Assembly: GCA_945898275.1 (NCBI GenBank)
Contig: CAMDHZ010000001.1
Location: forward strand, 124,001-188,000
DNA length: 64,000 nt
Reading direction: 5' to 3'
Source: Chitinophaga pinensis
GTDB lineage: Bacteria > Bacteroidota > Bacteroidia > UKL13-3
Position numbers and translations under genes: made by a program. Below the pieces are notes generated by a model that did not search any database, was not told the origin of the DNA, and saw only the letters and a program-made list of their open reading frames with translations. Shown here in pieces: positions 5,346 to 41,835 of the stretch. The first letter of the stretch is position 1. Each line of letters starts with the position of its first letter.

Positions 5346-7382
5346 ATGAAAAAACAATTACTTGCTATCGCAGCTATGTTTGTAGGACTAAGCGCATTTG
5401 CGCAAGACTACTATTACAGAAAACTTATTGGCACAACCTCTGAGTACGTTATGAACCAAACTGGCGCAACCACTCTAGTAAATGGTCCAGCAACTAGTAC
5501 CCTTAGTTCAGAATCCACACTTCCATTTGCTTGGAATTTTTATGGACAACCTGTTACAAAATTTAAAGCCAGTACAGCAGGATATATTACATTTGATGTA
5601 ACTCAAACAAATAGTGTACAAACCAACACCTCTTTGAGCAATTCCACAGCTCCTAACAATTCAATTTTTGCATTTTGGGATGACACTAAGTTAGCACCTA
5701 TCACTCAAGGAACAACAACTTTCCCTTCAGATATCTGCACTTGGACTTATGGAACTGCACCAAACCGTGTTTATGTAATCCAATGGAGATTAGTTCAAAC
5801 TGCAGCCAGCGCTTCACCAACTGATATTACTTATTATGCAATAAGACTTTACGAAAATAGCAACTTTGACATAGTTCATAATTATGGATTTGGCACATTT
5901 ACTGCAAGTGCTGGAACTAAAAATGCAGATGGAACTTCTTCCAAAGAAATTAAGGGTACACCGAACATGAACTTTGGTGGAAAAGACGGTCAATATGACG
6001 CAGCTTTGAGTGCTGTTTACAAATTCTTTTATGGTATCCAACCAAATAATGATCCAGAGTTGGCTAGCATAGAGTTGCCTAAATATACTCCAAAAAACAC
6101 CAATATGGCAATAAAAGGTGTAGTTGCAAACTATGGCAAACAAAGCTTAAGTTCTTTCAAATTAAAGTACACAGTGGATGGTGGAGCTGAAGTAATCATG
6201 CAATTAAGTGGTTTAAACATTGATGCAGACGGAGGAACTTATGCATTTACACACAATGTACCTTACTCAAGCCCAACCATTGGAGCTAAGAACATTGTTG
6301 TTAGTATTTCTGATCCTAACGCTGGTGTTGACGGTGATTTAACTAACAATAGCAAAAGTGGTTCATTTACAATCGTAAATTCAACTGTACCTCGTAAAGT
6401 ATTACATGAAATATTTACTTCATCTACTTGTCCTCCTTGTAAGCCAGGTAATGAAAACTTAAAAGCAGTTTTAGATTTTAAAGTAGGCGAATGGACAACC
6501 ATTAAATATCAAACTAACTTCCCTGGAACAGGAGACCCTTATTATACCTCTGAAGTTGGAACACGTTTTAGTTATTATGGTGCAAACTTTGCTCCTTGGT
6601 TAACCATTGATGGTGCAAACAGTTGGGGTGCTACTTCTGCAAATGCAAATTCTTACACAGAAGCTATGTTTGATGCTAAAAAAGCTGTGCCTTCATTAGC
6701 TGCAATTACTGCAAAATACACTATCGTCGGCAAAACTGTAACTGTTAGTGGTAATGTAACGCCGGTTCAAAGTTTCGCTAATTCAAGCATGAGACTTCGT
6801 ATTGCTGTGGTAGAAAAAGTAACAAGCAAAAATGTTAAAAACAATGGAGAATCTGAATTCTATGCAGTAATGAAGAAGATGCTTCCAAATGCAACTGGTA
6901 CTACTGTTAGTTTAGCTGCTGGTACTGCAGTTCCTTACACACAATCTTTCACTTTCCCTGGAGAGTATCGTTTGCCAACCAATGGTCAAACAGCTAATAT
7001 TATCAACTTAGCAACTGAACACTCAGTTGAATCTTTTGATAACTTATATGCTATCGTTTTCTTACAAGATGATGCAGACAAAACTGTTTGGCAAAGTGAA
7101 ACCACTACTCCATTAGGACCAGTAAGTGTAACTGAAATCAATGAGTTAGGTCTTAACATTTATCCTAATCCAAGCAAAGGAAACATCAATGTTACTTTTG
7201 GTGGAAATAGCAGCAATGGATCAGTTCGTATCGTTGATATGAATGGAAAAGAAGTTCTTGCTCAAACTATCAACAGCTTAAATGGCGAAATCAATTGCGA
7301 AAACTTAAGCAATGGCCTTTACTTTGTTGAATTAACTGTTGCTGGCAAAACTGCTACTAAGAAGTTAAACATTATTCGTTAA
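5346..7382 (+). CDS. Secreted Omp28-like protein with CPPC motif and T9SS sorting domain
   Basis: The 678-residue product starts with a clear signal peptide ending in LSAFAQ. The first 230 residues form a beta-rich domain with YAIRLYE and FWDDTK elements. The middle resembles the Omp28 family and carries EIFTSSTCPPCKPGNE near residue 361, a thioredoxin-like CxxC. The C-terminus has a type IX secretion sorting domain beginning at IYPNPSKGNINV near residue 604 and ending KKLNIIR. The protein is probably exported through T9SS and held on or released from the cell surface. The CxxC suggests redox or disulfide chemistry, but that activity is inferred. A strong terminator follows. Confidence 0.85.
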   Translation: MKKQLLAIAAMFVGLSAFAQDYYYRKLIGTTSEYVMNQTGATTLVNGPATSTLSSESTLPFAWNFYGQPVTKFKASTAGYITFDVTQTNSVQTNTSLSNSTAPNNSIFAFWDDTKLAPITQGTTTFPSDICTWTYGTAPNRVYVIQWRLVQTAASASPTDITYYAIRLYENSNFDIVHNYGFGTFTASAGTKNADGTSSKEIKGTPNMNFGGKDGQYDAALSAVYKFFYGIQPNNDPELASIELPKYTPKNTNMAIKGVVANYGKQSLSSFKLKYTVDGGAEVIMQLSGLNIDADGGTYAFTHNVPYSSPTIGAKNIVVSISDPNAGVDGDLTNNSKSGSFTIVNSTVPRKVLHEIFTSSTCPPCKPGNENLKAVLDFKVGEWTTIKYQTNFPGTGDPYYTSEVGTRFSYYGANFAPWLTIDGANSWGATSANANSYTEAMFDAKKAVPSLAAITAKYTIVGKTVTVSGNVTPVQSFANSSMRLRIAVVEKVTSKNVKNNGESEFYAVMKKMLPNATGTTVSLAAGTAVPYTQSFTFPGEYRLPTNGQTANIINLATEHSVESFDNLYAIVFLQDDADKTVWQSETTTPLGPVSVTEINELGLNIYPNPSKGNINVTFGGNSSNGSVRIVDMNGKEVLAQTINSLNGEINCENLSNGLYFVELTVAGKTATKKLNIIR

Positions 7383-7402
7383 TCGAATTTAATCTTATAA
7401 AG

Positions 7403-7434
7403 AAGCCCTTCAGAAATTCTGAAGGGCTTTTTTT
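7403..7434 (+). terminator. Rho-independent terminator after the first Omp28-like gene
   Basis: A perfect inverted repeat (AAGCCCTTCAG to CTGAAGGGCTT, stem of at least 11 bp) is followed by a run of seven or more T. It separates the two tandem paralogues, so they are probably transcribed separately. Confidence 0.92.
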
Positions 7435-7458
7435 ATGCCTATTTATTATCTTTAAACC

Positions 7459-9522
7459 ATGAAAATATTAAAGCTAGTAGTTTGTTTCCTATTTGTTCTC
7501 GCAAGCCATCTTGCCACAGCACAGTATTACTTAGTAACTAGCAAAGGAATTGCCGAACCTATCAACTTGGCGCAAAGCAATGAAAAAACTATCCTAAACG
7601 ATAAAAGTCAAAATGCTTACAGTGAATTCATCCCACTAAGTTTTCCTTTTACCTTTTACGGCCAAAGCATTAACGGCTTTAGAGCTTACTCAGATGGAAG
7701 ACTAGCATTGGATACTTTTCCTTTAACCCCTTCAGATACCAATTATTCCTTATCAAATTCACTTGCACCCAGTAATTGTGTTTACGCTTTTTGGGATCAA
7801 ACCGAATTAAAAAACTTCAGCTTAGGAGGCAAAACTTATGCTTCTGACATTCAAACTTGGCAAGAAAACCTTCATGGAAAAAAGGTTCAAACCATCTTAT
7901 GGCGATTGATTAGACCTAAACCCAGTAGCAGCTTAAACGCCTATGTTTACTACGCGGTTCGACTTTATGAAACAAACGAAATTGAGATCATACATTTATA
8001 TGGTACCGGAAACTTCACCGCCACGGTTGGAATAAAAGGAAAGGAAAACCAATCATATTTAGAAGTAAATGGCTCGCCAATACGCAATTATGGCGGAACT
8101 AACCTTGCCTATAACCCTGATTCTGTCCTAGAATTTAAATTTATTCCAGGCACCCAAAAACAAAATAACCTTGCCTTAACTTCCCTTGAAATTGCACCCT
8201 ACTTAGAAAATGGCAAACTAGTTACCCTAAAAGGCCAATTGATAAATTTAGGAAGTGATTCGCTTAAACAATTTAAGGCACAACTGAAAATTGGTCCTAC
8301 TCAAACTGAAATGCTACCAAACACTTTGGTTAATCTAGCTGTTGGCGAAAAGTATAATTTTGAATTTGCCCTTAGTGAATGGAGCTCAGATTCGGGTTAT
8401 CAGCTTTTTCAATTGGTTCTGTTTGAACCAAACCAGCAAGTAGATGAAGACAGTAGCAACAATTCTTTAGGTGTGGAAGTATTGGTTTATACCTCAAATT
8501 ATCCTCAAATGGTTTTGCATGAAGTGTTTTCATCTTCTTCAACAGGCCAAGGAAAAATAGCTAAGGAAGCACTTGCTCAAACGCTCAACAACTTTCTGGG
8601 GCAATGGATTGTGCTTACCCACCCCATGAATTTCCCAAATTTTGGGGATCCTTATTTCATGCAATTTAGTGCCGACCTCTTTCTCAAATACCAATTAAAT
8701 ATGTCTCCAGCCTTGGTGGTAAATGGAAACAAAAACTGGGGAGAAGAAATTCCTAATCTTAGTCTTTACAAACCAAGTTATTTCCAAACGTTTGCTGGCA
8801 AAAAGGCTTTGGTTCAAATAGATTGCAAACTTACCAGAAACGTACAATCGTTTGCAGTTAACACCCAAATTACCCCAACCAATGGTTTAAAAAGCAAGCA
8901 ACTTTACTTGCATGTGGCCTTGGTAGAGAAGGTCACTTATAAAAACACAAGAAACAATGGCGAAACCGAATTTTACCACATTGTGAAGGCCTTATTGCCA
9001 AACTCAACGGGAACTGCAGTTCAATTGCAGGAAGGAAAAAGTGTGCAGATGTTAGACAGCTTTACCTTTAAAGGAAACTATCGCCTGCCTGCGAGTGGCG
9101 ACCCAAATTTGATCATCAATCCACTGATTGAACACTCAGTAGAAAACTTTGAAAACATATACGCAGTTGCTTATTTGCAGGAGGAGGATAGCAAATTGGT
9201 TTTACAAAGCAGTAGTTCGGAGGTCTTGTTACCTTTAAGTCAAGCCGAACTTATATCATCTGAAATTCTGGTTTATCCAAACCCAGCCAATGAAAATATT
9301 CAAATCAGTTTACCAGAGGGAATACAGCAAGCACAAATTAGCATTAGAGACGCTAAAGGGGCATTGGTTCAACCCGAAACCTTATACAAACCCAAAACCA
9401 AATTGAGGTTACCTCCAATGGCTGAGGGCATATTTATCGTGGAGATAAAGACAGAAAAAGGTATTTATTGGAAAAAGCTTGCCTCGACTCCGCTCGGCAA
9501 CCAGTTGGCTCCGCTAAATTAA
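7459..9522 (+). CDS. Tandem paralogue of the Omp28-like protein, CxxC lost
   Basis: The 687-residue product has the same layout as its upstream neighbour: signal peptide (to LATAQ), N-terminal beta domain with AVRLYE and FWDQTE, Omp28-like middle, and a T9SS-type C-terminal domain with VYPNPANENIQI. Shared blocks include VALVEKVTYKNTRNNGETEFY and FKGNYRLP. At the place of TCPPC it reads SSSSTGQGK, so both cysteines are gone. The sorting domain does not end at the usual basic KKL strand but runs on into a GC-rich extension of about 13 residues (ASTPLGNQLAPLN), which looks like an intruding repeat. The copy may be a binding rather than a redox protein. Confidence 0.82.
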   Translation: MKILKLVVCFLFVLASHLATAQYYLVTSKGIAEPINLAQSNEKTILNDKSQNAYSEFIPLSFPFTFYGQSINGFRAYSDGRLALDTFPLTPSDTNYSLSNSLAPSNCVYAFWDQTELKNFSLGGKTYASDIQTWQENLHGKKVQTILWRLIRPKPSSSLNAYVYYAVRLYETNEIEIIHLYGTGNFTATVGIKGKENQSYLEVNGSPIRNYGGTNLAYNPDSVLEFKFIPGTQKQNNLALTSLEIAPYLENGKLVTLKGQLINLGSDSLKQFKAQLKIGPTQTEMLPNTLVNLAVGEKYNFEFALSEWSSDSGYQLFQLVLFEPNQQVDEDSSNNSLGVEVLVYTSNYPQMVLHEVFSSSSTGQGKIAKEALAQTLNNFLGQWIVLTHPMNFPNFGDPYFMQFSADLFLKYQLNMSPALVVNGNKNWGEEIPNLSLYKPSYFQTFAGKKALVQIDCKLTRNVQSFAVNTQITPTNGLKSKQLYLHVALVEKVTYKNTRNNGETEFYHIVKALLPNSTGTAVQLQEGKSVQMLDSFTFKGNYRLPASGDPNLIINPLIEHSVENFENIYAVAYLQEEDSKLVLQSSSSEVLLPLSQAELISSEILVYPNPANENIQISLPEGIQQAQISIRDAKGALVQPETLYKPKTKLRLPPMAEGIFIVEIKTEKGIYWKKLASTPLGNQLAPLN
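7884..7893 (+). repeat. Dispersed motif core GGTTCAAACC
   Basis: Core copy in the second Omp28-like gene, without the GAAA extension. Confidence 0.5.
9366..9379 (+). repeat. Dispersed motif, variant GGTTCAACCCGAAA
   Basis: Inside the CxxC-less Omp28 paralogue, encoding V-Q-P-E-T; it is followed by CC. Confidence 0.8.
9481..9516 (+). repeat. GC-rich short repeat forming the extreme C-terminus of the preceding gene
   Basis: The stretch containing CCTCGACTCCGCTCGG is much more GC-rich than its surroundings. It resembles the short CTTCGACTCCGCTCAG-like dispersed repeats found between genes in many Bacteroidota. I see only this one copy in the window, so the assignment rests on resemblance to known repeats. 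Confidence 0.35.
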
Positions 9523-9891
9523 AGAAAACATGACTTTAATGGCATAAGCTATTGGCGCTGCTTGAATAAGCTACTCCTTATTAGAAAAATTTAATTTATG
9601 TTTTTAAGAAACCTGTTACCCCTGTTAGAAGATATTATTTGTCCATGCTTTAATAACAATTTGTAGAATAAGCTCTACTATTCTATATCGAAAAATAAAT
9701 TCGGATATAGAATTAATTCTAAGAAAGGAAATTCTGCTTGTAATAATTTGCTTTATAGGTTTTTATCTATTAACATTGTATTGCCTAATTTAAAAATTCT
9801 ACTCAATTTAATTACCCCAAATTACGATCATTTAAAAGCATCAAGCAAATCATTCATTTGCATTTTAAACCAATAAAAAACTAATTCTTAT
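9523..9891. other. AT-rich intergenic region without a recognised gene
   Basis: This 369-base stretch has stop codons in all frames at short intervals and no tRNA-like fold or strong terminator. No exact TAnnTTTG box was found in the last 100 bases, so the promoter of the following cargo gene is not located. Confidence 0.6.
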
Positions 9892-10728
9892 ATGAAAAAA
9901 CATCTGCTCAATTGTTTGTTTTTAAAAGGTTTGCTCTTAAGCCAAATACTAGCAGCCCAAACGCCTATTAAACTTAAACTTATTGGAGCATTTTGGGATA
10001 GCACAGGTTATAGTTTCGATACCTTATACTTTGGATTTCATAAAGATGGCGGACTAGGTGTACAGGCAGGATTAGATGTGCTAGACACTAATTCAAAACT
10101 TAATTGGGGAACTTATGATACTAGTACACCTAACTTAAGGTATAAAACCAATATCAGAGAATTTGAACCATATACCTACACATCCTTTCAAATCTATGCT
10201 CGTAATAATTTAGTTTATATAAAATGGGATACAACAGAGTATCAGCCATCATTTTATAATTATGATTTTGTTAGATTAAGTGTGACATTAGAATGCAAGA
10301 ATGCTTTTTTTGAGTTTCCAGAATTTTACGGTCACGCTATTTCAGGTAGAACAGAATCATGGAAAGAAACCAATGGAGTTAATCCTGTAGATTCTGTGAG
10401 GATATTTATTATTGGATTTTCTCCACAATTATGGGTTAACTTGGGGGTAAGAGATTCTATACCTACTAGTATAAATAACACACAGCTTCAACAAAAATTA
10501 GAAATACTCCATTCTAATGATGCTAATCTTTTGCATGTGAAAAACCCTCTTGAGTTACCTTTAAAAATAGATTTAATTAATCACCTAGGGCAGAGTCTGG
10601 CAAAATTGCCTATTACTACTAGCCTAAGCCACATAACTATACCCTTAGAAGGCCTTTGCAGTGGGATTTATTATTTAAGCATTACAAACGATAATAATTA
10701 TACCTTAAAAAAAATAATCATACCTTAA
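9892..10728 (+). CDS. Secreted protein with T9SS-like C-terminal domain, function unknown
   Basis: The 278-residue product starts with a signal peptide (MKKHLLNCLFLKGLLLSQILAAQ). The body is beta-rich with no recognised enzymatic motif; it has several WDTTEYQ/YDTSTPNLR-like segments. The last 80 residues have the shape of a T9SS sorting domain (KIDLINHLGQSLAKL ... GIYYLSITNDNNYTLKKIIIP), although the usual YPNP opening is replaced by VKNPLELP. It precedes the metalloprotease by 22 bases and is probably co-transcribed, which suggests a shared secretion programme. Confidence 0.7.
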   Translation: MKKHLLNCLFLKGLLLSQILAAQTPIKLKLIGAFWDSTGYSFDTLYFGFHKDGGLGVQAGLDVLDTNSKLNWGTYDTSTPNLRYKTNIREFEPYTYTSFQIYARNNLVYIKWDTTEYQPSFYNYDFVRLSVTLECKNAFFEFPEFYGHAISGRTESWKETNGVNPVDSVRIFIIGFSPQLWVNLGVRDSIPTSINNTQLQQKLEILHSNDANLLHVKNPLELPLKIDLINHLGQSLAKLPITTSLSHITIPLEGLCSGIYYLSITNDNNYTLKKIIIP

Positions 10729-10750
10729 TATTATCTAAAATTAAATTTCT

Positions 10751-12460
10751 ATGAAACAATTAACACTTTTTTCAGTACAGCTTCTTTCATCTTTATTGTT
10801 GTTTTCACAATCTAATTTTCATTGCGATTACGATCCTATGCAACAACAAACAGAGAATTTTTTTACACAAAACAAAGGAAATAATCTTTGCATGGCTAAT
10901 GGAAATGCTCACACCCCAAAAGGTGTATTAAACACCATGATGGTATTTGTTACATTCACAGAAGACCAAAACAATACAAACGCAGAAAACAATATATACT
11001 TTTGGCCTAAAAATAGCGTTCCAAATTATGCCACTAATGTTTTAAATCTTGGACCTAATCCTGGTTCTGTTTCGAGTAAGTCTAATAATTTAACAGGATA
11101 CTATGAAACTATGTCTGGATACAATGGTACTAATGGTTTTTCTGTTACTGGAAAAGTTTTTCATGTTACAATATCAAAACAATTTAACTATGACAATAAT
11201 AAATCTAAACTAGAAAATTTGGAAAATTTCGAAAACACACTTTGCCAAAGATCAATAAATGCCTTGCAAACACAATATCCTAATGAGGATTGGTCTCAAT
11301 ATGACAAAAGAGATAACATTAATAGGTCTGGAAACAGGGGTACTAGAACTTTCGAAACTGATAACAGCGCTTTATACAGTGATGGAGTAATAGATTACTT
11401 TAGTATTCACTTTAGGTTACTACCATCTGATTTAAATATTTATAGAACAGGACAAGGTGCTATTAGGCGAAATGGACGCTCTTACTTCGCGTATATGAAA
11501 TCAATCTTAGGGTTACCAGACCTAACGAAAAACAACCAGAATTTTTGGATTGATTGTGGACATACACTTTTTGACCCTTTTGATTTTCCAAAATTTTTTC
11601 CATACTTTACTCATGAGTTTGGGCATGGTGTTTTTGGTTTAGCACACCACATGGGAGCTAATGATGTTACTGGATTTTACTTTAATTCATACTATGGTTG
11701 GGGTATGATGGCAGATGTTTCTAAATTTTTCAACACAAGCAATGCTTGGGAAAATTGGACTTATGGATGGTCGAACCCACAGATTGCAACACCCAATATT
11801 CAAACTTATAGTATAAAAGATTTTGTTACCACTAAGGATGCCATTAAAATTCCAATTCCCAATACAAGTCAGGCCCTTTGGATTGAAAACCATCAATTAA
11901 TAAATTTTTTTGATAATAAAAATACTACGAATATTGGTAACATGACCCCTGGATTATACATGTATATTTCTGACTATGAAAGTCCAGAAAACTGCGTTTT
12001 GGTGCCTTCCTCCGCAAGATATTATGAGGATATTCCATATTCTAGAATGCTTTTTTGGGCCAATCGACTAAAGGTACTCAGTAAAGAAGGAAATAAAGAT
12101 TACATATATACAGCAACAGGAACAAATACATTTAACTTTACAACCATAGCTGATAATCCAATTTCTGGCGCTCATTCTGCGCAAAGTTTAAGAATTGATA
12201 TGAATAAAGATGCTGTTATAGACTATAAATCAGCAACTGCAAATGATGGTAGCAACGAACACACCAGAGTTTATAATTTAAACAATTCAAATGTGGCAAA
12301 TTGGTCTGGCAATTCAAGTTCAGCATTTGGTGTTGGCGATGAACTATCCATTAGTGGCCTTTTACCAATTCTAAATTATCCGTTCATTGATAATGAGCAG
12401 GATAGATTAACTGTTATAGAAAACAACAACACTCCCAATAATCCAATTCAAACCATTTGA
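10751..12460 (+). CDS. M6-like secreted metalloprotease, N-terminal part of an apparently frameshifted gene
   Basis: The 569-residue product has a signal peptide (to LLLFSQ) and a zinc-protease site HEFGHGVFGLAHH beginning at His288. A probable Met-turn, YGWGMMAD, follows. Downstream blocks WTYGW, SIKDFVTT and ALWIENHQ match the M6 (immune inhibitor A-like) peptidases of Bacteroidota. The zinc motif is HExxHxxxGxxH, one residue longer than the metzincin HExxHxxGxxH. The protein lacks the T9SS sorting domain expected for such a protease and stops at TGA just where the next frame, shifted by +1, continues with a plausible domain. I therefore regard it as the front part of a roughly 1,470-residue protein. 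A genuine short form remains possible. Confidence 0.75.
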   Translation: MKQLTLFSVQLLSSLLLFSQSNFHCDYDPMQQQTENFFTQNKGNNLCMANGNAHTPKGVLNTMMVFVTFTEDQNNTNAENNIYFWPKNSVPNYATNVLNLGPNPGSVSSKSNNLTGYYETMSGYNGTNGFSVTGKVFHVTISKQFNYDNNKSKLENLENFENTLCQRSINALQTQYPNEDWSQYDKRDNINRSGNRGTRTFETDNSALYSDGVIDYFSIHFRLLPSDLNIYRTGQGAIRRNGRSYFAYMKSILGLPDLTKNNQNFWIDCGHTLFDPFDFPKFFPYFTHEFGHGVFGLAHHMGANDVTGFYFNSYYGWGMMADVSKFFNTSNAWENWTYGWSNPQIATPNIQTYSIKDFVTTKDAIKIPIPNTSQALWIENHQLINFFDNKNTTNIGNMTPGLYMYISDYESPENCVLVPSSARYYEDIPYSRMLFWANRLKVLSKEGNKDYIYTATGTNTFNFTTIADNPISGAHSAQSLRIDMNKDAVIDYKSATANDGSNEHTRVYNLNNSNVANWSGNSSSAFGVGDELSISGLLPILNYPFIDNEQDRLTVIENNNTPNNPIQTI

Positions 12461-12470
12461 ATTAAATGGC

Positions 12471-15161
12471 TTGGTTATAAATATTTTACATTTTAATAGT
12501 ACCACCAAAGAATATACGATTTTTGTTAGCTACACCGATAATACTCTTTCTAATAGCAAAGAATGGGCTGGAAACATAGAAATACCTAATATATTTTCAC
12601 AAGTTAATGTGCCAGATTTATCTATAAAATCTGGAAAAACACTTACCATAAAAAGAAGTGGAACTGCCAATACTCAAAGAAATTCTCAAGCTTTGAACAT
12701 AACAAATTTCACATGGCCAAGTAAGTTAATTTGCAAGAATGGCGCTTACTTAAGTTTGGAAAGTGGTTCAAATGTTATTATAAAAGATACTTCAACCTTT
12801 GAGCTTGAGTCAAATGCCACTTTAGAAATTCAAAACGGCAGCACATTCAATGTAAAAGATTACAGTTCATTTAAGATACATCCAAATGCGAAAATCATTG
12901 TAAAAGAAAATGGGAAGTTGTTAATAGAAGAATCAAGTACACTTACCTACCTTAATAGTGGTCAGATAATTTTGGAAGGACCAAATTCAATTTTGGAATT
13001 TAAAAGTGGAGGTAAAATTTTAATAGGAGAAAATGCTACATTTAATTATTCTGGTAATGGGTTTATTAAAATAAATACTGATAATTCAATATATCCAATT
13101 TTCCGAGCTATTGGCCAAAATGCTAGGGTGAAAATTGTTACAAGTGGATTTAACTTCAATTCAAAGAAAATTTTAGAAATAACTGGAGGATCATATGTTT
13201 GTGACTACAATAAAGAAAATTCAAATGGTCTTTCAAATTTTGAGTTAAATGAGTTAAGTTTTCAAAATGGGCTTATTCAGCTTGACAGAAATACTGGAAT
13301 TGCGATATCTGGTAAGAACACAAAAACAGATTTAAGAAATTTGTTTATTAAGGCGAGAATTGAAAATACTGCAAATGAAAGACACTTCGGAATAGTTTTG
13401 AATGGTCAAAAAGGAAATTCAATTTACAAAGTTTCTATTAGAGATGGGGTAAATGGTATTACATCAAATAATTACTATGGTGGAAATAATTTAGACTTGT
13501 TGCAATACAATGCTTTTTCATGCGAAATAGGCATTCAAATTAATGGGGCAGGAGCAAGGATTCAAGATTGTAAAATAAATGACTGTAAAACTGCAATATT
13601 ATTGCAGGGGATGTATGGAAGCACAAGATTGTATCGAGGAGAAATTTTTAATTGTAGCGTTGGCGTTTTAGCAGTAAATTGTGGTTCTACAGTAATTGAA
13701 CTGTATCAACCAAATATTCACAATAATTTTAATGGAGTTTACGCATCAAATTCTTTGATAACTGGCAATTGCGGTAAAGTATTTAACAATGCGGCGGCTA
13801 ACATGGTAAACGGGAAATATGAAGGGGCAAACTTTCATTTAAATAATTTATCCAACCTTACCTTAGATCCAACCTTTAGGCCTGGGATTGGCAATGTAGA
13901 TTTGAGTAATGTGAGAGGTGTATCTGTAAGACTAGAAAAATCTGGAACAGGGCCATTAATTTCAAATTCTCAATCCAACTTAGAAACTGGATTAGATTAT
14001 TCGATTGTTGGTAATATAAACAGAAATTTAACTTCGATTCCACTAAATATTTTTAGTAAAATGAATTTTTGGAGATCGTCTTCAGGGACTTCTTTTTCTC
14101 CAGTGCATCTAATTGATTATAAGGTAATAAATTCAATCGCACCATTTAGCACAAATTTTGTTTATTACCAAGACCCAAATCCAATATCAAATTTTCAAAT
14201 TTGTGGAACAGGCTCTATAGGTTCTACAGGAGGCGATGATAGATTCAAAGGATTCTTATCTGCACCTATTAGCATTTTAGAAGGTGTATCAGATTTTCAA
14301 TTAAGTGACGGAAACAATGCTAAAAATTCTGTATTTGAAGGCTTTCAATTTGGATTTGACCTTTTTCCTAATTATGAATTAGCAATTAATTCTTTAATGA
14401 AAATTCTAAACCATCAGTTTACACAGGAACAATTTCAAAATTGGAAGGAACCTATTGTCGAAATCAATACCCAAATGATTGAATTTTTAAAAAATGGAAT
14501 TGAAGATAAGCGCCTTGAAAAAGACGCAAATTTCGAATTAATTAATAACATTATTACGCTTCAGAATAAGTTAATGACAGACTTTAGAGATGACAGCAGC
14601 CAATTTTCAGGATTTCAAATAAAAAAGGTGGAAGTTTTTAGGCTAATTGAAAACTATCAAGAGGCTATTCAAACTTTATCAGATATTGATTTGCAATTTT
14701 CTCCTAACTATGAGGGGCTAAAATCATCACTAACCTGTATGATAAACAATGAGGTTGCCTCAAAATCTAATTTTTCGGCTTTAATAGAAACAGGATATGG
14801 TCTGCATTGTTTTTCGGAAATTGACTATAATAATATGGTTCCTTTTGAAGATACTACTAATTATCAAGGTGTATTAAAAGATAGCTTAATTATCTTCACA
14901 GAATCTACCAATGATATAAATGTTTACCCAATTCCAACTAGTAGTTATATTACAATAGGTAGTCTTTCTCTAAAAGAATTCAATTGCGAAATTGAAATAT
15001 ATGATAATCAAGGTAAGTTAGTGAGGAAACAAAATGTTAATGTTGGCAAGAATTTAAGCAATCAAGTATTTTTAGGCGCTTTAGAATCAGGAATTTACCA
15101 AATTATAATTAAATATTCAACTAAACAGGAATTACATAAAATAGTAATAATCAAAGATTAG
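12471..15161 (+). CDS. Beta-helix repeat and T9SS sorting domain, C-terminal part of the split protease gene
   Basis: The frame opens at 12420 after an in-frame TAG; the first usable start is TTG at 12471. The 896-residue reading has no signal peptide. It begins LNGLVINILHFNSTTKEYTI, a beta-strand pattern that follows the catalytic domain in related M6 proteases. It then has rungs such as SNATLEIQNGSTFNV and GSNVIIKDTSTFEL (about 85-200), right-handed beta-helix regions to about 480, and a T9SS sorting domain opening at VYPIPTSSYITI and ending HKIVIIKD. A secreted protein with a sorting domain but no signal peptide is not expected to be exported alone, which supports joining it to the upstream frame. 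Confidence 0.72.
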   Translation: MVINILHFNSTTKEYTIFVSYTDNTLSNSKEWAGNIEIPNIFSQVNVPDLSIKSGKTLTIKRSGTANTQRNSQALNITNFTWPSKLICKNGAYLSLESGSNVIIKDTSTFELESNATLEIQNGSTFNVKDYSSFKIHPNAKIIVKENGKLLIEESSTLTYLNSGQIILEGPNSILEFKSGGKILIGENATFNYSGNGFIKINTDNSIYPIFRAIGQNARVKIVTSGFNFNSKKILEITGGSYVCDYNKENSNGLSNFELNELSFQNGLIQLDRNTGIAISGKNTKTDLRNLFIKARIENTANERHFGIVLNGQKGNSIYKVSIRDGVNGITSNNYYGGNNLDLLQYNAFSCEIGIQINGAGARIQDCKINDCKTAILLQGMYGSTRLYRGEIFNCSVGVLAVNCGSTVIELYQPNIHNNFNGVYASNSLITGNCGKVFNNAAANMVNGKYEGANFHLNNLSNLTLDPTFRPGIGNVDLSNVRGVSVRLEKSGTGPLISNSQSNLETGLDYSIVGNINRNLTSIPLNIFSKMNFWRSSSGTSFSPVHLIDYKVINSIAPFSTNFVYYQDPNPISNFQICGTGSIGSTGGDDRFKGFLSAPISILEGVSDFQLSDGNNAKNSVFEGFQFGFDLFPNYELAINSLMKILNHQFTQEQFQNWKEPIVEINTQMIEFLKNGIEDKRLEKDANFELINNIITLQNKLMTDFRDDSSQFSGFQIKKVEVFRLIENYQEAIQTLSDIDLQFSPNYEGLKSSLTCMINNEVASKSNFSALIETGYGLHCFSEIDYNNMVPFEDTTNYQGVLKDSLIIFTESTNDINVYPIPTSSYITIGSLSLKEFNCEIEIYDNQGKLVRKQNVNVGKNLSNQVFLGALESGIYQIIIKYSTKQELHKIVIIKD

Positions 15162-17922: not shown

Positions 17923-18681
17923 ATGCAAATTAGTGTTACCATTATCACTTTTAATGAGGCCAATAACATTCACAGGTGCTTGCAATCTGTTGCCTCTGTA
18001 GCAGATGAAATTATTGTGCTTGACTCCTACTCAACCGACCAAACTGCAGAAATTGCCAAGCAATGTGGGGCAACTGTAATTTCTCAAAAATTCTTAGGGC
18101 ATATCGAGCAAAAAAACCTTGCTATCTCCTATGCAAATCATGATTATATCCTTTCTATAGATGCCGACGAAGCCTTAGACAGCCATCTTGCTTCGGAGAT
18201 TTTAGCTATTAAAAAATCAGATTCCCCAGCCCAAGCTTATTGGATCAATCGTTTCAACAACTACTGCGGCCAATGGATTAGGTATGGCGCGTGGCGAAGC
18301 GATAAAAAAATTAGGTTATTCCATAAACATTTTGGAAAATGGGGTGGCATAAATCCCCATGATAGAATTGAGTTATCGGCGTCGGTTCAACCCGAAACCC
18401 TTAAAGGAAACCTTTTGCACTGGAGCTATAACAGCATAACCGAGCACCAAAACAAAGTCTATAAATACGCAGAAATTGCAGCCTTAGCCTACCAAAAAAC
18501 GGGCAAAAAATCTTCCTACTTTAAAATTATCCTGAGTCCAATTTTTAGGTTTGTAAGAGATTATATTTTCAAACTTGGCCTATTAGACGGCAAATACGGC
18601 CTTATCATAGCCTCACTTACCGCCAAAGAAGTTTATTTAAAATACAAACGTTTAAAAAGTTTCGGTTTGAACCAAAACTGA
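17923..18681 (+). CDS. WaaE/KdtX-like family 2 glycosyltransferase
   Basis: The 252-residue product starts ISVTIITFNEANNIHRCLQSV, has SYSTDQT and the metal-binding SIDADE (about residue 87), and RSDKKIRLFHK, which together match the WaaE/KdtX subgroup that adds a glucose-like sugar to the lipopolysaccharide core. The C-terminal hydrophobic stretch SPIFRFVRDYIFKLGLLDGKYG is typical of that subgroup and may bind the membrane surface. The stop abuts that of sucB on the other strand. The last codons overlap a copy of the GGTTCAAACCGAAA motif, in reverse orientation. Confidence 0.85.
   Translation: MQISVTIITFNEANNIHRCLQSVASVADEIIVLDSYSTDQTAEIAKQCGATVISQKFLGHIEQKNLAISYANHDYILSIDADEALDSHLASEILAIKKSDSPAQAYWINRFNNYCGQWIRYGAWRSDKKIRLFHKHFGKWGGINPHDRIELSASVQPETLKGNLLHWSYNSITEHQNKVYKYAEIAALAYQKTGKKSSYFKIILSPIFRFVRDYIFKLGLLDGKYGLIIASLTAKEVYLKYKRLKSFGLNQN
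18384..18397 (+). repeat. Dispersed motif, variant GGTTCAACCCGAAA
   Basis: A copy inside the WaaE-like gene, encoding V-Q-P-E-T. It is followed by CC, as are the copies at 9366 and 42378. Confidence 0.8.
18660..18673 (-). repeat. Dispersed motif, exact GGTTCAAACCGAAA on the minus strand
   Basis: It spans the last codons (F-G-L-N-Q) of the WaaE-like gene. Confidence 0.85.
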
Positions 18682-40292: not shown

Positions 40293-40703
40293 ATGAAACT
40301 TCGATTAAAAAAATCAATACAACTTATATTGTTGTTAATTTCAGTAATTGCTTGTAATCAAAATCCTTGCAAGAAAGCAAATTGTAAAAGTACCAAAAAA
40401 AATCATAATATAAACGTGGTTTACATGCCATCAGACACCATTTCTAGCGTTATAATCACTGAAACAATTTTGTTTAAAAATAACCAAGTTCTTCATATGG
40501 ACACTTTAAAAATGAGTACAGTAGGTACAAGATTTCTTTCAGACAATAATTTATCCGAACTAGGAAACAATGCTATCAATAAGGTAACTTTTAAGGTTTA
40601 TAAAAATGGAGTAATTCTTAGGAGTTTTGATTATCAAGTTAAAACTAATTGTTGTGAAATAATAGACCTTGGAGGACCTGATCATTTAGAAATTTTTGAC
40701 TAA
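40293..40703 (+). CDS. Small cysteine-containing lipoprotein, paralogue of the one at 23806
   Basis: The 136-residue protein has a signal peptide and lipobox (SVIAC), then NQNPCKKANCKS. Its C-terminal part reads VTFKVYKNGVILRSFDYQVKTNCCEIIDL. The spacing of CxxxxC, FKVY and the CC pair matches the lipoprotein at 23806, with little identity elsewhere. It lies between a WG-repeat gene and the ParB-like/HAD pair, and there is no shared neighbour with the other copy. Function unknown. Confidence 0.72.
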   Translation: MKLRLKKSIQLILLLISVIACNQNPCKKANCKSTKKNHNINVVYMPSDTISSVIITETILFKNNQVLHMDTLKMSTVGTRFLSDNNLSELGNNAINKVTFKVYKNGVILRSFDYQVKTNCCEIIDLGGPDHLEIFD

Positions 40704-40990
40704 GGCATTAAAAATAATACAATGGTTGAAGTAGCATTTAGATATGGTCTAAAAACACATGTTCATGCTAAAAGTTCCCTTTCCTACCCTATCTATTAAT
40801 AACAAAGTAAAGGTTAATGGGGTTTTATAGTATTGTTGAAAGAAATCACACTTTTAGGAAATTTTAAATCATTTAAATTTAACCCATTAGCTTAAAATCT
40901 GCAATTGAATTGTGCTTTAAAACAAAGAGTGATTTCAATATCTTAGAATTCACAATTAGTTTCGATTATTCCTATTAAACATGGAAGCAC

Positions 40991-41365
40991 ATGCTAAGAA
41001 TTGAAATAGAAAAACTCCTCAAAACCAATGAATTTAAAATATATCCTTCACAACAAAAAATATGCTTACCTATCCTACAAAGGATAATCTCAAAAATGGA
41101 AGTTAACTTACACTTTATGCCAATTAAAATTTATAACAATTTAATTATTGATGGACATCATAGATTTATAGCTTCAAAATTTACAGGTCAAAAAATTGAA
41201 ATGATTAAATACTCCAAACCAACCTTTATTAAAAAGGAAAATTGGGGAAATCTTTATATTGATGAAAGTGATTGGGAAGGTCAAAAAGAAATCATTCAAT
41301 GGAACATCAGGGATGCTGATTATAATCAAATTAGTTTATCTGAATTAATGCAAAAAATAAAATAA
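40991..41365 (+). CDS. ParB/sulfiredoxin-like domain protein
   Basis: The 124-residue product contains PIKIYNNLIIDGHHRFIASKFTG (about 47-69), the DGHHR motif of the ParB N-terminal/sulfiredoxin fold, in which the motif binds nucleotide or a phosphate. It lacks the helix-turn-helix of true ParB partition proteins. The second half, with KENWGNLYIDESDWEGQKEIIQW, is not recognised. It is 16 bases upstream of the HAD-like gene and probably co-transcribed. A possible role is a small kinase or ATPase in nucleic-acid repair or stress, which I infer only from the fold family. Confidence 0.65.
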   Translation: MLRIEIEKLLKTNEFKIYPSQQKICLPILQRIISKMEVNLHFMPIKIYNNLIIDGHHRFIASKFTGQKIEMIKYSKPTFIKKENWGNLYIDESDWEGQKEIIQWNIRDADYNQISLSELMQKIK

Positions 41366-41381
41366 ATGCTAAATTTGTTTT

Positions 41382-41819
41382 ATGATTTTGCTGTTAGATA
41401 TAGATGGTGTAATGGTGCCTCAAAAAAGCTGGAAACAACCAGAAATACTTGAGGACGGTTTTCCAGCATTTAGCCATTTTGCAGTGGAGGCATTAAATGG
41501 CCTGATTGATTCTGACACTAAAATTTTTATCACAAGTTCGCATAAATCTAGCTATAGACCGCATGAATGGCAGGCAATCTTTAAAACAAGAGGTATAAAG
41601 CATTGCTCAATTTACAGGTTACCAGAGAATACAAATAATACATCTCGTAAAGAAGAAATTTTGAATTGGTTCGAATTCCAAAACATCATAGAGTCTTATC
41701 TTATTTTAGATGATGATACATCTTTGCAAGGTTTACCTAAAAACTTAAAAGATAATTTAATTCAAACCAGCCCAATGATAGGGCTCAGAAACAGTGACCT
41801 TCCCCAAATCCTATTTTAG
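41382..41819 (+). CDS. HAD-superfamily phosphatase (Swiss-Army-Knife RNA-repair type)
   Basis: The 145-residue product opens LLLDIDGVMVP (HAD motif I, nucleophile Asp6 followed by Asp8), has FITSSHKSS (motif II, about 50-58), and YLILDDDTSLQGL (motif IV, about 106-118), then NLIQTSPMIGL. This is the HAD domain class found in Swiss Army Knife RNA-repair proteins, which remove phosphates from RNA ends; small stand-alone versions are common and not well studied. Together with the ParB-like gene it makes a small accessory operon. Confidence 0.72.
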   Translation: MILLLDIDGVMVPQKSWKQPEILEDGFPAFSHFAVEALNGLIDSDTKIFITSSHKSSYRPHEWQAIFKTRGIKHCSIYRLPENTNNTSRKEEILNWFEFQNIIESYLILDDDTSLQGLPKNLKDNLIQTSPMIGLRNSDLPQILF

Positions 41820-41835
41820 AATGCACTTTGCATTC
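41819..41835 (+). terminator. Small hairpin after the HAD gene
   Basis: GAATGCA and TGCATTC form a 7-bp stem with a 3-base loop starting right at the stop codon. It lacks a T run, so it may be a weak terminator or a mere stability element. Confidence 0.3.

Follow-up and report, generated by a model that had tools for sequence, protein, structure and literature searches.

A patchily distributed gene pair of Bacteroidota encoding a predicted ParB/Srx-fold protein and a HAD phosphatase: a candidate toxin-antitoxin-like module

DarTG- and HipBA-like systems exemplify toxin-antitoxin pairs in which the antidote is an enzyme or the toxin a kinase, and in some toxin-first pairs the second gene has its own promoter. 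A phosphatase is also combined with a partner enzyme in the small mobile modules KKP (kinase-kinase-phosphatase; PMC11341870) and DS-9 (PMC13092281). The gene pair analyzed here resembles both modules in this composition, whereas KKP uses Ser/Thr kinases and DS-9 uses a metallophosphatase, and the portions of the two papers available to us describe no ParB/Srx-fold partner (PMC11341870; PMC13092281). The enzymes sulfiredoxin, SerK, and SbnI use the ParB/Srx fold to bind ATP, and in ParB the fold works as a CTP switch; binding of CTP, ATP, or GTP has lately been demonstrated for several orphan proteins of this fold, whose role is unknown (PMC12704722).

The pair was found in assembly G000 (3.5 Mb), which has uncultured Bacteroidota as its relatives in the named collection. 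The window, that is, the whole stretch of 64,000 nucleotides that was analyzed, contains two co-directional genes separated by a spacer of 16 nt. An earlier note on this DNA had described them as two ORFs 16 bases apart, the first carrying a DGHHR motif in a ParB/sulfiredoxin fold and the second encoding a stand-alone HAD phosphatase of the SAK type, and each of these descriptions is borne out below. The features of the locus are as follows.

40991-41365, + strand: ORF1, a single-domain protein of 124 aa with a predicted ParB/Srx fold (AlphaFold2, Foldseek, 53-sequence alignment)
41150-41164, + strand: DGHHR codons, residues 54-58 of ORF1, a predicted NTP-phosphate-binding loop (alignment; role inferred from the superfamily)
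41370-41377, + strand: TAAATTTG, a match to the -7 element TAHHTTTG, 4 nt before the ATG of the HAD gene (consensus and spacing from PMC6847099)
41382-41819, + strand: HAD_SAK_2 phosphatase of 145 aa (PF18143, 56-sequence alignment, AlphaFold2)
40317-41820: segment missing in the sister species G008, comprising most of the ORF that starts at 40293 and the pair (flanks 93-94% identical)

No family match was found for ORF1 in Pfam, NCBIfam, or PADLOC, and nothing significant was found by sequence among solved structures; a PHROG match to a 'ParB-like partition nuclease' was weak (E 0.066). The AlphaFold2 model, built from an input with 53 homologues, has a pLDDT of 96.1. Its best matches in the PDB are ParB-N domains, ParB with CDP, Atu1540, SbnI, and Noc, and all of the top 15 matches, which individually are weak (Foldseek E-values from 0.018 to 1.4), are proteins that we take to belong to the ParB/Srx superfamily. 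Many of the matches among viral structures are ParB/sulfiredoxin proteins as well. It is the agreement among these matches that supports a ParB/Srx fold for ORF1. Residues G55, H56, H57, and R58 are invariant across the 53 aligned homologues and, by analogy with the superfamily, this loop is predicted to bind the phosphates of a nucleotide.

A role of ORF1 as a ParABS partition protein was considered and rejected: no match to PF02195 (ParB_N) was found, a protein of 124 aa is too short to hold an HTH domain, and parA is not a recurrent neighbour in the 58 loci described below. Alignment of ORF1 with the ParB proteins of the same genomes by hhalign also gave a null result. The sole sequence hint is to DUF1015 (PF06245), for which weak Pfam matches were obtained with 4 of 14 ORF1 members (best E 0.014, below the cut-off); in hhalign the P-value was 1.3e-4 but the probability was 27%. 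Thus, ORF1 has a predicted ParB/Srx fold and is placed outside both PF02195 and PF06245. By model comparison it has the same fold as sulfiredoxin, SerK, SbnI, and DUF1015; the DGHHR loop is common to ORF1 and DUF1015 (hhalign), and the use of the fold as a single domain is shared with sulfiredoxin (PMC12704722). Unlike these proteins, ORF1 has no significant family match, has C-terminal helices of its own, and is found with an obligate HAD partner and without serine-biosynthesis neighbours. DUF1015, itself a DGHHR protein, was found in all 21 relatives searched (L168-L182), and in the genus of the window its genes adjoin serA (3-phosphoglycerate dehydrogenase), hinting at a serine-kinase-like role for DUF1015.

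The second protein matches PF18143 (HAD_SAK_2) over residues 2-139 with 86.5 bits, the curated cut-off being 27.5 (E 2.9e-24), and it also matches phrog_1818 of PHROG. Residues D6, D8, T51, S53, R89, and D110-D112 are invariant across 56 HAD sequences. By sequence, the protein is thus a member of PF18143 with intact HAD catalytic motifs. Structure matches of its AlphaFold2 model (pLDDT 93.2) are HAD folds, the closest being YrbI/KDO-8-P phosphatase and HisB-N and, equally, the 3'-phosphatase of T4 Pnkp. With other stand-alone HAD_SAK_2 proteins, including phrog_1818, it shares a full-length match above the cut-off and all the HAD motifs; the clade of the pair differs from them by the ORF1 partner, by a predicted promoter at the gene start, and by the absence of an RNA-repair partner. 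Two related subclades have other surroundings. In a divergent one, which has neither ORF1 nor the -7 element, the HAD gene lies directly downstream of argH in three genomes of Sphingobacteriales type (L156, L158, L159), and a separate role for the HAD family there is possible. In the other, a different upstream partner of 140 or 318 aa overlaps the HAD start by 4 nt (L151:1082-1504 and L153:548-1504, in HAD-oriented coordinates). Three HAD copies are held by L049:10179-18622; around one of them (18085-18558), the end of the upstream gene is repeated directly over 57 nt (91%), and a HipB-like XRE gene follows this copy.

Homologues of ORF1 were gathered in three ways: from the relatives, from 395 genomes of the class, and from one genome per species for 84,980 species. 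In the last set 58 ORF1 loci were found, all belonging to Bacteroidota. The HAD gene is adjacent to ORF1 in 57 of them, and the exception (L095) stops at a contig edge; it is also adjacent in all 15 new ORF1 loci of the class sample. Rare adjacency in other genomes, which the earlier note had named as the sign against its pair, was therefore not observed. ORF1 usually precedes HAD, with 10-28 nt between them, and in L089 the order is reversed. No third partner is comparable, since the next family, a large and paralogous one, occurs within 20 kb in only 15 of the 58 loci, and the nearest neighbours of the pair are mostly unrelated housekeeping genes. Because HAD adjacency is near-constant and no other family is comparably linked, the unit consists of two genes, with a pairing that is near-obligate and far above chance. 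Three candidates were discarded. The 402-aa ORF of L057 reflects a reading frame that is open further upstream and not a fusion, the apparent Rosetta-stone fusion in L147 is the product of a deletion instead, and the one match in viral_contigs (L097) failed the ORF1 profile.

The distribution of the pair is patchy: ORF1 was found in 16 of the 395 class genomes, about 4% of Bacteroidia. Homologues of ORF1 from the same genus are 31-36% identical, whereas for ParB and DUF1015 of these genomes the identity is 75-84%, so the copies in the genus are not simple vertical orthologues. In the sister species G008 the 1.5-kb segment bearing the pair is missing between flanks that are 93-94% identical, which would be explained either by gain in the window or by loss in G008, and in G005 another gene occupies the site. 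Within the window, GC content reaches its minimum, 0.294, at 40-42 kb. These observations on GC, the sister species, and identity within the genus agree with the suggestion in the earlier note that the region was acquired. For pairs from different flavobacterial genera, dS is sometimes only 0.5-0.8, and for either gene dN is much smaller than dS. These values suggest that transfer was recent and that both genes are under purifying selection. The distances of ORF1 and HAD are correlated (Mantel r 0.66, 0/999), as expected if the two genes move together. Judged from these comparisons, the pair is horizontally moved as well as patchy, and its site is polymorphic. Many toxin-antitoxin pairs are carried by plasmids or phages, whereas no phage or plasmid match was found for this pair in the collections searched, which are poor in Bacteroidota.

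Additional features were observed around the insertion site. The ORF at 40293-40703 encodes a lipoprotein-like product of 136 aa with no significant family match and lies mostly within the segment absent from G008; since its first 24 nt survive in G008, it may represent older cargo of the site. A 55-nt remnant at 40753-40807 matches, with 80% identity, the 3' end of the different gene found at the same site in G005, which shows repeated turnover of cargo. In contig 33 of G032 (L017, the same region as L041), at 6700-13700, the pair is located between attC-like repeats in an integron-cassette-like array of short genes, inside 184-nt direct repeats that are 88% identical and spaced 1448 nt apart. 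Seven genomes searched for an integron integrase gave no match above the cut-off.

In Flavobacterium johnsoniae, the -7 element has its G at position -5, with the start site 4-5 nt downstream, and leaders exceed 10 nt in 87% of the transcripts for which a promoter is probable (PMC6847099). In the analyzed loci, TAnnTTTG, the -7 element of Bacteroidota, occurs within 30 nt upstream of the HAD gene in 48 of 58 cases, in comparison with 1.4% of random 30-mers. The stricter TAHHTTTG precedes the ATG of HAD by 3-5 nt in 43 of the 58 loci, and by exactly 4 nt in 34 of them. Among other genes of the same loci, 18 of 627 (2.9%) carry the element even under a more generous criterion; the resulting P-value of 7e-41 overstates independence because the loci are related, and the contrast with ORF1 starts and with neighbour genes nevertheless holds. 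No enrichment was found before ORF1 starts, and TAHHTTTG within 100 nt of ORF1, as a candidate for its own promoter, occurs in 13 of 59 cases, which is background. The element is also kept before HAD in the reversed locus L089 and is lacking in the divergent HAD subclade. With a spacing of 4 nt, transcription is predicted to begin with the A of the HAD start codon, so the message would be leaderless. A separate, leaderless promoter for the HAD gene is thus predicted within the module.

Loss of genes from the pair runs in one direction. HAD-directed searches revealed intact HAD genes of the main clade without ORF1 in seven loci (L099, L107, L135, L145, L148, L149, and L150). An extra intact copy without ORF1 is carried by L049. 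An intact HAD gene was also found beside a frameshifted ORF1 (L142), a split or frameshifted ORF1 (L096), a 30-aa ORF1 remnant (L165), and an ORF1 from which an internal deletion has taken out the DGHHR part (L147). The reverse case, in which ORF1 is intact and HAD is missing or disrupted, was found 0 times against about 12 cases of HAD survival, a ratio that is indicative, as the genome sets searched for ORF1 and HAD were identical in only two of the searches. Copies of ORF1 with a short C-terminus and a wider gap (e.g., L085, L086, and L092) were taken as a short subfamily and left out of the count of broken genes. One-way loss would also be expected if HAD were useful by itself, which is conceivable in view of the related HAD subclades without ORF1 and promoter, such as the one beside argH.

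The explanation that we favor, tentatively and as something short of probable, is a mobile two-gene module organized like a toxin-antitoxin pair, in which an NTP-using ParB/Srx-fold protein acts and the HAD phosphatase reverses the effect. ORF1 would be the actor, binding an NTP through the DGHHR loop and most likely transferring phosphate to a small molecule or a protein, as SerK, SbnI, and sulfiredoxin do. HAD would be a dedicated antidote that removes this phosphate or detoxifies the product, and the internal leaderless promoter would keep HAD expressed where ORF1 is not transcribed or has disappeared. An actor and its antidote are the simplest reading of a putative phosphotransfer enzyme that is joined to a phosphatase never lost first and having a promoter of its own. 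Among the features by which toxin-antitoxin pairs are recognized, adjacency, near-obligate pairing, and mobility were all found here, and HAD outlives ORF1 and not vice versa. DarTG- and HipBA-like systems are similar in consisting of two small adjacent mobile genes, in keeping the antidote after loss of the partner, and in the promoter predicted for the second gene; unlike in those systems, neither protein of the pair can be assigned to a toxin or antitoxin family already known, and the likeness is one of architecture. Neither protein was matched by PADLOC models at E <= 1, and no description of the pair was found in the open-licence literature. That the pair is a new type of toxin-antitoxin or defence system, with a ParB/Srx phosphotransferase toxin and a HAD antidote made from an internal leaderless promoter, spread across Bacteroidota, is a possibility that we regard as doubtful.

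A non-toxic role is somewhat unlikely, in which ORF1 would be a metabolite kinase like SerK, SbnI, or DUF1015 and HAD its phosphatase, the two forming a switch or consecutive steps of a niche pathway. Such a role is in line with the hint to DUF1015 and its serA neighbourhood, with the serine kinase SbnI among the fold matches of ORF1, and with the resemblance of the HAD model to small-molecule phosphatases; yet the recurrent pathway neighbours that it leads one to expect were not found in the analyzed loci, the extreme patchiness and mobility of the pair speak against it, and it predicts neither the leaderless promoter of HAD nor its survival alone. An NTP-dependent effector or sensor of anti-phage defence regulated by HAD, or an accessory to such defence, is unlikely. 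In one flavobacterial clade, defence-type modules lie directly upstream of the pair: a CBASS CD-NTase with E1/JAB and NucC (L039), an AGS_C cyclase-type module (L055), a KAP NTPase (L051), and XRE with ImmA/IrrE (L066). The loci L039 and L066 represent the same site, with a common downstream MFS gene and different upstream modules, suggesting a hotspot with swapped cargo. HAD phosphatases are, moreover, described in validated defence systems, e.g., DS-9 (PMC13092281). Across all loci, however, the neighbours are mostly housekeeping genes, no PADLOC model matches the pair, and only scattered single PADLOC matches were found among 108 nearest neighbours, a figure that comes without a control rate; membership in defence islands was consequently rejected as a rule.

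The earlier note had proposed a small nucleic-acid repair or stress module. The two-gene unit is real and appears to be acquired, and a stress module is conceivable; the link to repair is not supported. Healing of RNA or DNA ends by HAD, with ORF1 as a partner kinase or nuclease, is very improbable, although the fold matches of HAD include T4 Pnkp 3'-phosphatase and some ParB-like domains have been reported to be nucleases (PMC5512222). The name of PF18143, taken from RNA-repair proteins ('Swiss Army Knife RNA repair'), reflects homology to the HAD domain of multidomain proteins, and the link to repair rests on this name. The search near RtcB that the note had proposed yielded 1 of 58 loci: in L092 (5319-9849), a WYL regulator, TROVE/Ro60, and RtcB ligase are directly beside the pair, and this locus alone lends support to RNA repair from gene surroundings. 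With RtcB/TROVE at this locus only, and with no RNA ligase, kinase, or RtcB recurring among the neighbours, RNA repair was rejected as the general context. Repair also predicts neither a separate promoter of the second gene nor the persistence of HAD alone; the promoter and the pattern of loss fit a pair of an actor and a safeguard better than a two-step repair pathway.

At more than 70 loci, an orphan ParB/Srx-fold family is joined by a near-obligate and chemically suggestive partner, a phosphatase, and this provides a two-gene hypothesis that can be tested. Should ORF1 prove toxic and HAD reverse its effect, the pair would represent a type of toxin-antitoxin system working by reversal of phosphorylation and using neither the HipA nor the Fic fold. 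The leaderless promoter predicted where the second gene begins would be a well-conserved regulatory design.
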